Positions 4,913 to 41,582 of a stretch of DNA of 41,582 nt are shown here, piece by piece. The notes beneath the pieces are model-generated. The model ran no database searches, had not been told where the DNA came from, and was given only the letters and a program-made list of their open reading frames with translations. Position numbers and translations under genes: made by a program. Where the stretch lies: contig DAIDIF010000216.1 of the NCBI GenBank assembly GCA_027451805.1, positions 1 through 41,582 of the forward strand, read 5' to 3'. Position 1 is the stretch's first letter. Each line of letters begins with the position of its first letter. Origin of the DNA: Acidobacteriota bacterium (GTDB lineage Bacteria; Acidobacteriota; Terriglobia; Terriglobales; SCQP01).

Positions 4913-5653
4913 GTGATCGTCAAATTCGCCCCGGCGGCGGCGGCGCGCAAGCCGGCGCGGCGCGACAAGCCGGAGATGACGCTCGATCGCGCGCTGTCGC
5001 GCGCCGGGGCAGCCTCGCGCACGGACGCGGCGCGGCTGATTGCCGCCGGGCGGGTACGGGTGGAGGGGCGCGTGGCGCGCGATCCGCAGGCCTGGGTGGC
5101 GCCGGCGCGGCAGCGGATCGAGCTTGACGGGCGTCCGCTGCGGCGGCCGCAGCCGCTCTACCTGGCACTGCACAAGCCGGCGGGGGTGATCACCAGCCAC
5201 GGCGATCCGCGCGGCCGGCGCACGATCTACGATCTGGTGGGCGAACAGGCGAGCTGGTACTTTCCCGTCGGGCGGCTCGACCAGGACACGCGCGGGTTGC
5301 TGCTGCTCACCAACGACAGCGTCTTCGCCGACCGCATCGCCAGCCCCGAGGGCAAAGTGGACAAGACCTACCGCGTGCTGGCCGCTCCGCCGCTCGATGA
5401 CGCCGAGCTGCAGCGGCTGCGCGCCGGGCTGGACATTGGGCGGGGCGAGCGCTCCGGGCCCGCACGGGTGCGGCGCGCCGGCTTGGCGGTGGAGATCACC
5501 ATCCGGGAGGGCAAGAACCGGCAGGTGCGGCGCATGATCGAGGCGCTGGGACACCAGGTCGAGGACCTGCTGCGCATCCGGGTGGGCAAGCTGCGGCTGG
5601 GCGATCTGCCCGAGGGCCGATGCCGAAGCTTCCAGCCCAGCGATGTAATCTAA
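4913..5653 (+). CDS. Pseudouridine synthase, RsuA/RluB family
   Basis: A 246-aa protein. Residues about 22-80 form an S4 RNA-binding domain (RALSRAGAASRTDAARLIAA), and the catalytic domain follows with the family signature PVGRLDQDTRGLLLLTND at about 118-135. The Asp of GRLD is the nucleophile that isomerises uridine in rRNA. The KNRQVRRMIEALGH motif near residue 201-214 is the other conserved block. Length fits RsuA/RluB/RluF enzymes; which rRNA site is modified cannot be told. GTG 4913 is used here; ATG 4976 is an alternative that would start directly at the S4 domain. A TAGACT box at 4901-4906 lies at -12 to -7 relative to the GTG, consistent with a leaderless start. It follows the MerR gene by nine bases and precedes the MBL/rhodanese gene by six. 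Confidence 0.88.
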   Translation: MIVKFAPAAAARKPARRDKPEMTLDRALSRAGAASRTDAARLIAAGRVRVEGRVARDPQAWVAPARQRIELDGRPLRRPQPLYLALHKPAGVITSHGDPRGRRTIYDLVGEQASWYFPVGRLDQDTRGLLLLTNDSVFADRIASPEGKVDKTYRVLAAPPLDDAELQRLRAGLDIGRGERSGPARVRRAGLAVEITIREGKNRQVRRMIEALGHQVEDLLRIRVGKLRLGDLPEGRCRSFQPSDVI

Positions 5654-5659
5654 GAGTTC

Positions 5660-7042
5660 ATGGCGGCAATGCACATCGAGCAGTTTTACCTTGGCTGCCT
5701 GGCCCACGCCTCCTATCTGGTGGCTGACCGCGAAGCCGGTGTCGCCGCGGTGGTGGATCCGCAGCGCGACGTGGAGCAGTACCTCGAGGCCGCGGCCCTT
5801 CTGGGCGTGCGTATCCGGTACGTCTTCCTCACCCATTTCCACGCCGATTTTCTCGCCGGCCATCTCGAGTTGCGCGACCGCGCGGGCGCGGAGATCTGCC
5901 TTGGCGCGCGCGCCCAGGCGGAGTACAAATTCCGCGCCTTCGGCGACGGCGAATCACTGCCGCTGGGCCGCGGCCGGCTCGAGGTGCTGCACACCCCTGG
6001 CCATACGCCCGAGTCCATCACGCTGCTGGTGTTCGACGCCGGCGCAGCGGCGCCGCGCGCGGCGCTCACCGGCGATACGCTGTTTCTGGGCGACGTCGGC
6101 CGCCCCGACCTGCGCGCGTCGCTGGGGTGGTCAGCGGAGGATTTGGGCAGTTTGCTCTACGACTCGCTGCACACCAAGCTGCTGCCGCTGCCCGACGCCA
6201 CGCTGCTCTATCCCGCGCACGGCGCGGGCTCGCTGTGCGGCAAGCAGTTGAGCCGCGATTCGGTGGGCCTGATGGGCGATCAGCGCCGGCTCAATTACGC
6301 GCTGCAGCCGATGAGCCGCGAGGCGTTCCTCAAGCTGGTGCTGGCCGACCAGCCCGACGCGCCGGCGTATTTCACCTATGACGCCGTGCTCAACACGCGC
6401 GAGCGGCCCGGCCTCGAGGCCAGCCTGCAGGAGGGCCTGCGGCCGCTGGGCGTGGCCGAGGCCGAGCGGACGGCGGCCGCGGGCGCGATCGTGCTCGACA
6501 CGCGCGACCCGGTGGAGCACGCGCGCGCGCACTGGCGCGGCGCGGTCAACATTCCGCTGGACGGCGCCTTCGCCACCTGGTGCGGCACGGTGCTGCCGGC
6601 CGACATGCAGATCATGATTGTCGCCCACCCCGGGCGTGAGCGCGAAGCCGCGGTGCGGCTGGGCCGCATCGGGTTCGACCGCGTCGCGGGATTCCTCCAG
6701 GGCGGAATGGCGGCGCTTGACGGCCACGACCGCGTGCTGGCGGGGCGGCCGCGGCTGATCCCGCCCGAGTTGCGCGAGCGGCTGGGGAAGGTGCCGGCGC
6801 CGCGGCTGCTCGACGTGCGTACCGCGCCCGAATATGCGCAGGGCGCGATCGCCGGCAGCCGGCACCTGCCGTTGCAGCAGTTGCGCCAGCGTCGCGCCGA
6901 ACTGGCGGGCGAGGGGCCGTTCGTGGTGTATTGCCAGAGCGGCTACCGCTCGTCCATCGCCGCCAGCCTGCTCGAAGGCTGGGGAGTCGAAGCCAGCGAT
7001 CTCGAAGGCGGCTATCAGGCCTGGCAGGCGGCGGCAGGGTAA
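5660..7042 (+). CDS. MBL-fold persulfide dioxygenase-like protein with two rhodanese domains
   Basis: A 460-aa soluble protein. The metallo-beta-lactamase domain (1-250) has THFHADFLAGH (His59, His61, Asp63), PGHTPES (His114), GDTLFLGDVGRPD (Asp139) and PAHG (His187). HADF in place of HxDH, with a single iron site, is typical of the ETHE1/CstB-type enzymes that oxidise glutathione or low-molecular-weight persulfides to sulfite. Two rhodanese modules follow. The first (about 275-360) has VAHPGRE where the catalytic Cys loop should be, so it is inactive for sulfur transfer. The second (about 372-458) keeps the loop YCQSGYRSS with Cys425. The layout predicts sulfide/persulfide detoxification or sulfane-sulfur relay. 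It is followed by superoxide dismutase, which suggests an oxidative and sulfur stress neighbourhood. The start at ATG 5660 has no good ribosome site; a TAATCT box lies at 5646-5651. Confidence 0.85.
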   Translation: MAAMHIEQFYLGCLAHASYLVADREAGVAAVVDPQRDVEQYLEAAALLGVRIRYVFLTHFHADFLAGHLELRDRAGAEICLGARAQAEYKFRAFGDGESLPLGRGRLEVLHTPGHTPESITLLVFDAGAAAPRAALTGDTLFLGDVGRPDLRASLGWSAEDLGSLLYDSLHTKLLPLPDATLLYPAHGAGSLCGKQLSRDSVGLMGDQRRLNYALQPMSREAFLKLVLADQPDAPAYFTYDAVLNTRERPGLEASLQEGLRPLGVAEAERTAAAGAIVLDTRDPVEHARAHWRGAVNIPLDGAFATWCGTVLPADMQIMIVAHPGREREAAVRLGRIGFDRVAGFLQGGMAALDGHDRVLAGRPRLIPPELRERLGKVPAPRLLDVRTAPEYAQGAIAGSRHLPLQQLRQRRAELAGEGPFVVYCQSGYRSSIAASLLEGWGVEASDLEGGYQAWQAAAG

Positions 7043-38045: not shown

Positions 38046-39209
38046 ATGAAAGCCGCCATCATCCGCGCCGAATGGGCGCCCCGCCCCGACTATCCGCTGA
38101 CCGAAGAAGAACAGCGCACGCGCATGGCGCGCGTCGGCTCCTCCGTCTGGAAGCATCCCCGCGCCGAAGTCACCACCCTCCCTGATCCCACGCCCGGGCC
38201 GCAGGACGTCATCGTGCGCGTCGCCGCGGCCGGCCTGTGCGGCTCCGACCTGCACTTTTTCGAGACTGACGCCGAAGGCTACATGCATTATCCCGGCATC
38301 GCGCGCTTCCCCTCGGTTCCGGGGCACGAGGTCTCGGGCGAGGTGGTCGCCCTCGGCGCCGACGCGCGCTACCTCAAGCTGGGCGACCTGGTCTGCCTTG
38401 ACGACATGGTTTGCTGCCACCGATGCGACGCCTGCCGCCGTGGCTTTCCCAACCAGTGCGAGAACCTCGACGACGTGGGCTTCACCATGAACGGCGGCTG
38501 CGCCGAGCTGCTGCGGGTGCCGGAGAGCAACTGCTGGAACATCAACGCGCTGGTCGAGCGCTTCGGCTCCAAGGCGCGCACGCTGGAGGCGGGGGCGGTG
38601 ATCGAGCCCTTCACTGTGGGCTACAACGCGCTGTTCGAGTGCGCGGCGCGCATCAAGCCCGGCGCCTACGCCACCGTCTTCGGCGCCGGCTCCATCGGTC
38701 TGGCGGTGATCCAGCTGCTGCGCGCAACCGGCGCCGCCAAGGTCTTCTGCTTCGAGCAGAACGCCGGCCGGCGCGAGTTGGCGAAAAAAGTCGGCGCGGA
38801 CGAAGTGCGCGACAGCGCCGGCGCGGCCAAATTTGTGCTCGACGCCACCGCCGGCCAGGGAGCGGACGTGCAGGTGGAATGCGCCGGGGCATTTCAGGCC
38901 AGTCTGCCCGAGATGGATGCCTGCGCCGCCATTGCCGGCCAGATCGTGATCATCGGACGGGCGGCGCCGCGCGCGCCGCTGTCGCTGGAGAACCTGCAGA
39001 CCAAGCGCGCGAGCGTGGTCGGGGCCAATGGCAACACCGGCTACGGCACCTATCCCAACGTGCTGCGCATGATGGCGGCGGGGCTGCTGGATCCGACCCA
39101 GTTCATCACCGACCGCTTCCGGCTGGACGAGTTCGCCCAGGCGCTGGCGCAGGCGCAAACCCGCCAGGGCGGCAAGGTGCTGATCGCCATGAACGGGGCG
39201 CGGGGCTGA
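38046..39209 (+). CDS. Zinc-dependent dehydrogenase, scyllo-inosose 3-dehydrogenase-like
   Basis: A 387-aa medium-chain dehydrogenase. Catalytic zinc residues are Cys65 (LCGSDLHFFE), His94 and Glu95 (PGHEVSG). The structural zinc set is Cys124, 127, 130 and 138 (CHRCDAC and NQC). The NAD site is FGAGSIGLAV near 213. The unusual N-terminus (KAAIIRAEWAPR, VWKHP), GYMHYPGIARFP, NLDDVGFTMNGGCAE and IEPFTVGYNALF match the inositol-catabolism enzyme typified by Thermotoga TM0412, which oxidises scyllo-inosose. Other inositol genes are not in the window. AAGGAG lies about 12 bases ahead. It meets the next gene stop to stop with no bases between. Confidence 0.85.
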   Translation: MKAAIIRAEWAPRPDYPLTEEEQRTRMARVGSSVWKHPRAEVTTLPDPTPGPQDVIVRVAAAGLCGSDLHFFETDAEGYMHYPGIARFPSVPGHEVSGEVVALGADARYLKLGDLVCLDDMVCCHRCDACRRGFPNQCENLDDVGFTMNGGCAELLRVPESNCWNINALVERFGSKARTLEAGAVIEPFTVGYNALFECAARIKPGAYATVFGAGSIGLAVIQLLRATGAAKVFCFEQNAGRRELAKKVGADEVRDSAGAAKFVLDATAGQGADVQVECAGAFQASLPEMDACAAIAGQIVIIGRAAPRAPLSLENLQTKRASVVGANGNTGYGTYPNVLRMMAAGLLDPTQFITDRFRLDEFAQALAQAQTRQGGKVLIAMNGARG

Positions 39210-40100
39210 TCAGCGCAGGCGGAAGGTGAGGTGGACGACGCGCTCGCCGCGGATGCGGACCCAGAGGAAGGGCCCCGCCGGGGCCATGCGGATCTGCCGC
39301 GCCTCGGCGTAGCGGGCGTACTGGCGCACGATGCCGGCGATCTCGACGGCGCCACTCATCTTTTCGAAATCGGCTTCCTGCACGGCGCCGTCGGCGGGCG
39401 CGGCGCGCATCTGCTCCAAGACCGCGTCCAGTGCCGAGTCGGTGACGATGCAGGCCTCGGTCGCGCACTCGTAGATGGCGGCCAGCGCCGCCAGCGCGCT
39501 GTACTCCACCGTCTGGGTGAAGCCGACATAGAGCCGGCGCTGCGCCGCCGCCAGATGCAGCGGCAGCATGCGCATCGTCTCCAGTAGCGCCCGCGGCGCC
39601 CACCCCTGGCACTGGCGCCAGCCCTGGGACTGGGCCAGCGGATAGATGGGGCGCGCCCACTGCAGTCCCACCCCGGCGGCGATCGTGTCCTCGCTGACCG
39701 CGCCCTGGCGCACCAGCCATTCGCCGATGCGTCCGCCCTCGGTCTGGCGCGCCTCCAGCGCGCGCCGCAACTGCGTCTGCTCGATGGAGCCGCGCGAGAG
39801 CAGCAGCAGGCCGAGCGGAATGCGATGCGCCCGCGGACCGCGCGGCCGCTCGCTGCGCAGGAACTGGGTTGCCAGGCGCTCGAACGCCGCCTGGAAGCAG
39901 TCCGGGCTGCAGCACCAACCCTGCTGCAGTTGGATGCGCGAGGGCAGCTTCCACAGCGCGCGCAGGCCGTTGCGCTCCTGGCAGCGCGGCCCCATGCAGA
40001 CCCAGCGCTGGCGCAGCGCCTGCCAGGCGAGCGTGGACCGCGGGGTGGGTTCGCTGCCCGGGGCGCCGGGCAGCGGCAGCGGCATGGGCGCGCGGGTCAC
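39210..40100 (-). CDS. Protein with GspE-N-terminal (MshEN-like) domain and N-terminal Cys cluster
   Basis: A 296-aa protein without ATPase motifs. Cys35, 40, 63, 64 and 68 (VCMGPRC, GWCCSPDC) may form a zinc knuckle. Residues about 94-155 match the GspE/PilB N-terminal domain (IPLGLLLLSRGSIEQTQL, RIGEWLVRQGAVSEDTI, then LQWARPIYPL); such MshEN domains can bind cyclic di-GMP. The rest (160-296) repeats similar short helix/strand units but I do not recognise it. GTG 40100 overlaps the fliN stop as GTGA, so it is expressed with the motor-switch genes. It may be a c-di-GMP-responsive accessory of the motor or of a secretion ATPase; neither is shown. Confidence 0.6.
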   Translation of the reverse strand: MTRAPMPLPLPGAPGSEPTPRSTLAWQALRQRWVCMGPRCQERNGLRALWKLPSRIQLQQGWCCSPDCFQAAFERLATQFLRSERPRGPRAHRIPLGLLLLSRGSIEQTQLRRALEARQTEGGRIGEWLVRQGAVSEDTIAAGVGLQWARPIYPLAQSQGWRQCQGWAPRALLETMRMLPLHLAAAQRRLYVGFTQTVEYSALAALAAIYECATEACIVTDSALDAVLEQMRAAPADGAVQEADFEKMSGAVEIAGIVRQYARYAEARQIRMAPAGPFLWVRIRGERVVHLTFRLR

Positions 40101-40975
40101 CGCGCCGCCTCCAGCGCCGCCATGCGTTCGCGCCGGTGCACCAAGCGGTTCACGCGCACGCCGTAGTTGCCATCCACCACCACCACGTCGCCCCAGGCGA
40201 TGATCTTGTTCCCCACCATAAGCTCCACCGGGTCGTCGATGTGGCGGTCGAGCTCCAGCACCGAGCCCGGGGCCAGATCGCAGACGTCGTGGAGCAGCAT
40301 CTGCCGGCCGCCGAAGCGCAGGGTCACGTCCAGCTCCACGTCCAGCAGCAGATCCATCTTGGCGGTGCCCGCGGCCGACTCGCGCACCTCGCCCGGCTTG
40401 GTCGGCGCTGGCTCCTCCGGGTGCAACCGGTGGTGGAGGTGCTCCCGCAAGGTGCGGTCGAACGCCATATCGAGCTCCAGTTCCTGGCCGCTGGGATGGC
40501 GGAAGCGCAGGATCTGGCTGCGCTCGCTGTTCTCCACCGTGCGGCGCAGCGGCCCCAGGTGGCGCAAGATGATCTTGGAGTCTCCCCAGCCGGCCGAGCG
40601 CAGTTCCGGCACCACCGCGGCCAGCAGCCGGCGCACCAACGCGGTGAGCGCATCGCGCTCGGTGTCGTCAATCGGCAGCGTGCGCTGGCGCTCTCCCTCC
40701 GCCACCGGCGGCAGCATGAGCTGCGCCCACGCCCGCGCCGAGGCGCGGTGAAACTTGAACTGCTGGATGCCGGTGAGATCGCCGCTCAATTCGACGTGGG
40801 CCACCATCTCCAGCGACTCCTCCGCCGGCGGGGCCGCGGTGGTCAGCCGCTCCCAGGTGCTGTCTTCGGTCATGCCCTGAACCAGGGCGAGCGCGGTGTG
40901 AGCCCAGACTTCGGGATAGTCGCGGGTCGGCGTCGTCGGCGCCGGCTCAGCCGGAATGATCTCTTCGTCAGCCAC
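40097..40975 (-). CDS. fliN: Flagellar motor switch protein FliN (FliY-like, long form)
   Basis: A 292-aa protein. The C-terminal SpoA domain (about 206-280) reads LLLDVELDVTLRFGGRQML, SVLELDRHIDDPVELMVGNK and IIAWGDVVVVDGNYGVRV, matching the FliN family very well. The N-terminal ~200 residues are an added, mostly helical/strand domain not found in E. coli FliN (137 aa), so it is like FliY or other long forms; no CheC phosphatase motif is obvious to me. It sits in the C-ring and sets rotation with FliM and FliG. GTG 40975 overlaps the fliM stop by eight bases and has a GAAGGGGG site. Confidence 0.85.
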   Translation of the reverse strand: MADEEIIPAEPAPTTPTRDYPEVWAHTALALVQGMTEDSTWERLTTAAPPAEESLEMVAHVELSGDLTGIQQFKFHRASARAWAQLMLPPVAEGERQRTLPIDDTERDALTALVRRLLAAVVPELRSAGWGDSKIILRHLGPLRRTVENSERSQILRFRHPSGQELELDMAFDRTLREHLHHRLHPEEPAPTKPGEVRESAAGTAKMDLLLDVELDVTLRFGGRQMLLHDVCDLAPGSVLELDRHIDDPVELMVGNKIIAWGDVVVVDGNYGVRVNRLVHRRERMAALEAAR

Positions 40976-41582
40976 GGAGTCCCCCTTCGGGTTTGGCCAG
41001 CTTGGCCGGGGATTGAATCAGCGCCGCACGCAGCTTCGCCTGCCGGATCGCCTGCGCCTCGAACACCGCGCGTCCTGCCACCTTCACTTGCGCCGGCCGG
41101 TCGGCGGGATGGTTGAACATCATCACGTGCCCCGGCCGCATCTCCAGCAGCTCGCGAATGGGCACCGGAAACGGCGGCAGCGCCAGCTCCACCGGGAAGC
41201 GCGCTCCCAGCAGCCGCTGCCGCAGCCGCGGCCGAATCTCGCTGTCGTCCTGGCGGCGGTGATAGACCGGTGATTCGGAGAGCTTGCGCAGCAGTCCGGT
41301 GGAGACCACGGCCGGGAACGCGAGGTTCATCATCCCGACGATCCCCGCCAAATGCAGCTCGAAGCTGAGCGACAGGACTTTCTCGTGCGGCGGCATCAGC
41401 CGCATGATCTGCGCCATGGGCTGGCGGTGCTCGAAGGTGAAGCGCAAATCCAGCACTGGCTGCCAGCCCTGCTGCAGCTCGCGCAGGATGACGGCCACGA
41501 TGCTCTCCAAAATCTGTTCCTCGATCTCGGTGACCTCGGCGGGATGCTCCACCGCGGAGCCATTGCCGCCCAGCACCAGGTC
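40968..41582 (-). CDS. fliM: Flagellar motor switch protein FliM, C-terminal part (5' end beyond the window)
   Basis: About 204 residues remain; the frame is open at the right edge. Features are ILELQQGWQ-like helices, LDLRFTFEHRQPMAQIM, VLSLSFELHLAGIVGMMNLA with FPAVV (the FliM middle domain CheC-like core), and a C-terminal SpoA-type domain with PVELALPPFPVPIRELLEM, RPGHVMMFNHP and VKVAGRAVFEAQAIR. FliM is the C-ring subunit that binds CheY-P and transmits rotation changes. The N-terminal CheY-binding peptide lies outside. It overlaps fliN by eight bases. Confidence 0.88.
   Translation of the reverse strand, partial: DLVLGGNGSAVEHPAEVTEIEEQILESIVAVILRELQQGWQPVLDLRFTFEHRQPMAQIMRLMPPHEKVLSLSFELHLAGIVGMMNLAFPAVVSTGLLRKLSESPVYHRRQDDSEIRPRLRQRLLGARFPVELALPPFPVPIRELLEMRPGHVMMFNHPADRPAQVKVAGRAVFEAQAIRQAKLRAALIQSPAKLAKPEGGLRG

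Follow-up and report, generated by a model that had tools for sequence, protein, structure and literature searches.

The 3' end of a flagellar operon was read on the minus strand at the right end of the window, by which the whole analysed stretch of 41,582 nucleotides is meant. It contains three overlapping minus-strand genes, two of which were confirmed with Pfam as the fliM-fliN operon named in a preliminary description of this DNA. The third encodes a protein of 296 amino acids (aa) with an MshEN-like domain. Its coupling to fliN, noted in the same description, is present as a GTG start that overlaps the fliN stop in GTGA (40097-40100); an ATG at codon 6 is a possible alternative start. The overlap between fliM and fliN is 8 bases long. 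The complete fliM product opens with the stretch NQDEIDAL, which we take to be of the CheY-binding type and normal-looking. In the same genome (L082), the order is flhA, a sigma-70-family gene at the fliA position, fliM, fliN and the MshEN gene. The latter converges with a gene on the plus strand that, judged by eye, is alcohol-dehydrogenase-like, and the two stop codons abut at 39209/39210 with 0 bases between them. The features are as follows, with the basis of each in brackets.

40968..41582, minus strand: fliM, 5' end beyond the window (Pfam; whole gene read outside the window)
40097..40975, minus strand: fliN, FliY type, 292 aa (Pfam FliMN_C, 3.8e-22; NCBIfam FliY PRK08432 as best model)
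40406..40924, minus strand: N-terminal CheC/FliM-middle-like domain of the FliN/FliY protein (profile matches, structure model)
40139..40351, minus strand: SpoA/FliMN_C domain of FliN (Pfam)
39210..40100, minus strand: gene of the putative zinc-finger/MshEN protein, 296 aa (ORF, family profile, NCBIfam NF053729 above cut-off)
39897..39998, minus strand: four-cysteine element C35-x4-C40 ... C64-x3-C68 (Cys conservation)
39660..39818, minus strand: 53-residue c-di-GMP-type motif pair (comparison with the motif in the accessible part of PMC5013675, NCBIfam, conservation)
39405..39824, minus strand: whole MshEN-like domain with N four-helix and C alpha/beta subdomains (AlphaFold model, 5htl_B match)
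39213..39395, minus strand: small C-terminal beta-alpha-beta-beta-beta domain with conserved W280-x-R282 (AlphaFold model, alignment)

Architecture of the MshEN protein

The MshEN domain proposed in the preliminary description was recovered by several approaches, despite the fact that Pfam gave no match at all for the window protein at E-values up to 1. With the NCBIfam model NF053729 ('c-di-GMP_motif, MshE-related') it scored 46.8 bits, above the cut-off of 38 bits, and a family profile of 35 relatives matched MshE (5htl) at 1.8e-24 as well as solved PilB and PilF chains. An AlphaFold model of residues 29-296, built with 35 sequences (mean pLDDT 90.9), aligned to c-di-GMP-bound MshE (5htl_B) over 138 residues with a Z-score of 16.1 and an rmsd of 3.2; the four-helix plus alpha/beta fold of MshEN is present in this model. 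Motif I (residues 95-118, PLG...R) is degenerate and motif II (124-147, RIG...Q) is intact, and the spacer of residues 119-123 places the two 24-residue motifs exactly 5 residues apart, as in MshEN. Within the family, the Pfam MshEN model matches 26 of 35 members, and in the two relatives with coordinates seen the match spans the later, C-subdomain part only.

The cysteine cluster described earlier is a family trait, since C35, C40, C64 and C68 are kept in 100, 102, 101 and 102 of 103 distinct aligned sequences, respectively. The element is likely a zinc site. The MshEN domain is followed by a domain of about 60 residues alone, in which the W-x-R is almost invariant in the family. With the protein ending there and Pfam silent at E-values up to 1, a RecA-type ATPase domain is absent, as had been stated. 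The profile alignment to 6f8l continues to its 'VRL', so that the C-terminal domain may correspond to the beginning of N-terminal domain 2 of GspE/PilF. This is not claimed here, as the matches in the fold search were weak and unrelated (Z about 4). No PilZ domain was matched by Pfam in the window protein at E-values up to 1, nor was PilZ among the Pfam families matched by the 35 family members. DUF4388 was matched weakly by 10 of the 35 members of the family alignment (best E-value 0.0017).

The FliN protein

The N-terminal extension of about 200 residues that had been pointed out in FliN exists, but it is not unusual and was discarded as a novelty because it corresponds to a FliY-type domain. 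A profile of 17 FliN proteins matches Thermotoga FliY (4hyn) at 1.1e-5, with CheX also matched, and a structure model of the window FliN (mean pLDDT 81.2) aligns to 4hyn_A with a Z-score of 14.7, tied with FliM middle domains. Like FliY (Thermotoga 4hyn, PRK08432), the window FliN combines a CheC/FliM-like N-terminal domain with a C-terminal SpoA domain. Unlike FliY, it stays below the NCBIfam cut-off, PRK08432 being its best model with 91 bits over residues 62-288 against a cut-off of 219, and its N-terminal domain is very divergent, with 10% identity in the structural alignment. In many Terriglobales a short FliN is found instead.

Distribution in Acidobacteriota

The occurrence of the gene was determined in a sample of 297 genomes covering the phylum, with FliM called by the Pfam cut-off. 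Family members were separated from PilB-type N-terminal domains by the profile search, in which the former reached E-values of 1.2e-48 or better and the latter 2e-37 or worse. The MshEN gene was found in 38 of the 297 genomes, one of these (G211) carrying a fragment at a contig end, and all 38 are among the 71 genomes with fliM (Fisher p 1.3e-28, with shared ancestry ignored). The carriers are spread over ten families according to the family labels of the sample, and named isolates with the gene belong to Edaphobacter, Granulicella and Terracidiphilus. Among the 71 fliM genomes, 33 do not carry the gene, 17 of these 33 belonging to a single family (f24), and the gene is therefore dispensable for a flagellum. 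A first scan of the genome contigs with the single window protein as query had returned no relative, and plasmid records gave four weak partial matches only. Two records titled Rhodanobacteraceae (L134, L135) show the acidobacterial fliN-MshEN arrangement and are probably mislabelled or misbinned contigs.

Gene order around fliN

The preliminary description had made its proposal depend on conservation of the gene next to fliN in Acidobacteriota, and this conservation was observed. Among 113 loci with the MshEN gene, 105 were distinct by the last 200 residues, and in 100 of these a FliN match lies upstream on the same strand, so that the gene follows fliN. Four of the remaining five (L066, L077, L152, L186) end at contig ends, whereas L076 genuinely departs from the pattern. 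When the named genome collection is taken alone, 73 of the 75 loci found with the protein as query are linked to fliN, the other two being contig ends; L078-L080 and L197 were retrieved around fliM matches. These results provide strong genetic evidence that the MshEN protein works with FliN.

The order flhA-fliA-fliM-fliN-gene was found in 33 of the 113 loci and its extension flhA-fliA-fliM-fliN-gene-cheY-cheX-flgF-flgG in 30, counted within the available flanks on loci not made distinct and with labels assigned by phmmer using one query each. For one locus (L083), the response regulator, CheX and FlgF-type genes were confirmed with Pfam. In three loci (L096, L098, L101), the MshEN gene follows fliN in a cluster without fliM, directly so in L096 and L101. 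In the Terriglobales genome G241 (L096/L097), fliN and the MshEN gene are part of the main flagellar cluster, from which fliM is missing; some 80 kb away, a weak fliM is accompanied by another FliN-like gene on the opposite strand.

In L062, an HDOD gene (5314-6732; Pfam) is inserted between fliN and the MshEN gene. In other Acidobacteriota, HDOD genes (this one and L195, 4790-5500) are located between fliN and flgF at loci with as well as without the MshEN gene, in one case together with a small DUF2802/DUF6115-like gene.

At the exception L076 (G248, contig C87), a relative with the same cysteine element and MshEN domain is encoded at 5246-6100 on the minus strand, away from fliN. Its profile match covers positions 4-269 at an E-value of 2.4e-35, and its neighbours, named by eye, are secD/secF/yajC-like genes on one side and a TatD-like gene on the other.

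Ligand site and c-di-GMP supply

Conservation was counted over 103 distinct sequences after removal of duplicates from 111 aligned rows, the contact residues of an MshEN receptor domain being Arg, Leu, Gly, Leu, Leu and Gln in each motif. The Gly of motif I, the Gly of motif II and the Gln of motif II are each present in 103/103 sequences, and the Gln of motif I in 101/103. The Arg position of motif I holds Pro in 88/103 and K or R in 12/103, and only 24/103 retain Gly at motif II position 10; motif I is degenerate in most Terriglobales. The window copy is among the 88 sequences with Pro and is one of the two without the motif I Gln, which is replaced by Arg; its motif II is intact with conservative changes. 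The c-di-GMP-type domain of the preliminary description is in line with the conserved contact residues of the family; the window copy, however, differs from the motif at two contact positions, both in motif I.

According to the accessible part of PMC5013675, changes of Arg9 or Gln32 in MshE shift c-di-GMP binding no more than about fivefold, a perfect motif is not required for binding, and XpsE, which does not bind, lacks both Gly and Gln61 as well as other residues. In view of the contact conservation, this published tolerance and the XpsE losses, the family looks like a binder, and the window copy is doubtful. As far as sequences can tell, there is good evidence that the MshEN/fliN family senses c-di-GMP and fair evidence that the window copy does so. 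Binding in the window's organism is uncertain, since both the Arg and the Gln of motif I are missing there, and the affinity may be reduced as a result of the degenerate motif.

The window's genome (95% complete) encodes 7 GGDEF domains, and no PilZ domain was found in it at this completeness. PilZ domains occur in 271 of the 297 genomes of the phylum, including most carriers of the MshEN gene, and the PilZ-less state is unusual, being shared by the window's genome and few others. The absence of PilZ is therefore a point on the window's genome and not on the MshEN family, and a role of the protein as a stand-in for absent PilZ brakes was no longer considered.

Interpretation

Control of flagellar motors by c-di-GMP is known via PilZ and CheY-like proteins. 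With a probability of about 0.5, the MshEN protein is an accessory component of the flagellar switch (C-ring) that responds to c-di-GMP; its binding, partners and output are inferred. Counted in its favor were the linkage to fliN, the presence of fliM in 38/38 carriers, the MshE fold, the Gly/Gln conservation, the retention of the gene beside fliN in clusters without fliM, the cheY-cheX order, and the 7 GGDEF domains together with the lack of PilZ. Counted against it were the motif I changes of the window copy, the 33/71 fliM genomes without the gene, the commonness of PilZ and the exception L076. Binding of c-di-GMP to the MshEN domain could alter the docking of the zinc finger and/or the C-terminal domain, either on the FliN/FliY ring or on CheY/CheX, and the switching bias or speed would then shift when c-di-GMP rises on surfaces. 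Such a job would be comparable to that of the PilZ proteins YcgR and MotI and of the CheY-like Cle proteins of Caulobacter. That the protein may alter switching or speed is suggested by its gene neighbours and by analogy with the c-di-GMP effectors at other motors.

A more far-reaching proposal, which is put forward tentatively, is that the protein represents a class of its own, and a new one, among the c-di-GMP effectors of motors. The MshEN receptor of pilus or secretion ATPases would have been recruited in Acidobacteriota without the ATPase part, joined to a zinc finger and attached to the FliN/FliY ring, where it would set switching together with CheY and CheX.

Alternatively, the protein could serve the structure or assembly of the C-ring, for instance as a chaperone or scaffold of FliN/FliY, and retain the MshEN fold without making use of c-di-GMP, at least in the window's lineage. 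The tight coupling to fliN is compatible with this, and so are the replacement of the motif I Arg by Pro in most sequences, the loss of the Gln in the window copy and the rarely kept Gly at position 10 of motif II. However, the Gly and Gln residues at the ligand contacts belong to the small set of positions that are invariant throughout the family, and a mere scaffold would not need them, and the gene is absent from many fliM genomes, which makes this explanation rather unlikely. A regulator that is encoded in the flagellar operon but has its target outside the motor, for example in flagellar export or gene expression, would fit the signalling genes (HDOD proteins, cheY, cheX) that also occupy the slot between fliN and flgF, but is considered improbable because the gene follows fliN even where the cluster lacks fliM. 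A PilB mimic that couples flagella to type IV pili by competing for, or sharing, partners of the PilB N-terminal domain, and thereby balances both, is very improbable: the closest profile matches are PilB/PilF N-terminal domains, PilB-type MshEN matches are common in the phylum and the PilB N-terminal domain binds PilZ in the solved complex 7lko, but the gene sits in flagellar and not pilus clusters in the loci read and the window's genome lacks a PilZ domain.

If the more far-reaching proposal is true, no MshEN-based control of a flagellar switch would precede this one. An MshEN protein tied to fliN across the phylum would also offer a first handle on how soil Acidobacteriota pass from swimming to surface life, and the proposal is testable since the named isolates carry the gene.

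Comparison with known systems

In the literature covered, which consisted largely of open-access journal papers and included the accessible parts of PMC5013675, PMC12943098, PMC12564702 and PMC10519070, no flagellar switch operon with an MshEN protein was found. Wang et al. report MshEN in association with CheA and CheX domains and mention the swarming protein PA3740 (accessible part of PMC5013675). The protein resembles the MshEN domains of MshE, PilB and PilF (5htl, 5tsg, 8pdk) in its fold, the two 24-residue motifs, the 5-residue spacer and the Gly/Gln contacts. In contrast to these, it has no ATPase, carries a putative zinc-type finger in front and its own C-terminal domain, is encoded in a flagellar switch operon, and shows a degenerate motif I in most Terriglobales.

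With the PilZ brakes YcgR and MotI (DgrA) it would share the proposed role alone, that of a c-di-GMP effector on the motor, as described for YcgR in the accessible part of PMC12564702; it has no PilZ domain and its fold is unrelated. The same holds for the role proposed with regard to the Caulobacter Cle effectors, in which c-di-GMP acts on the switch. These are CheY-like proteins (c-di-GMP motor effectors in the accessible part of PMC5677366), whereas the window protein is an MshEN protein. A phylum-wide MshEN protein that is genetically tied to fliN would bring the receptor folds at the switch to three, the new one being unrelated to the other two.
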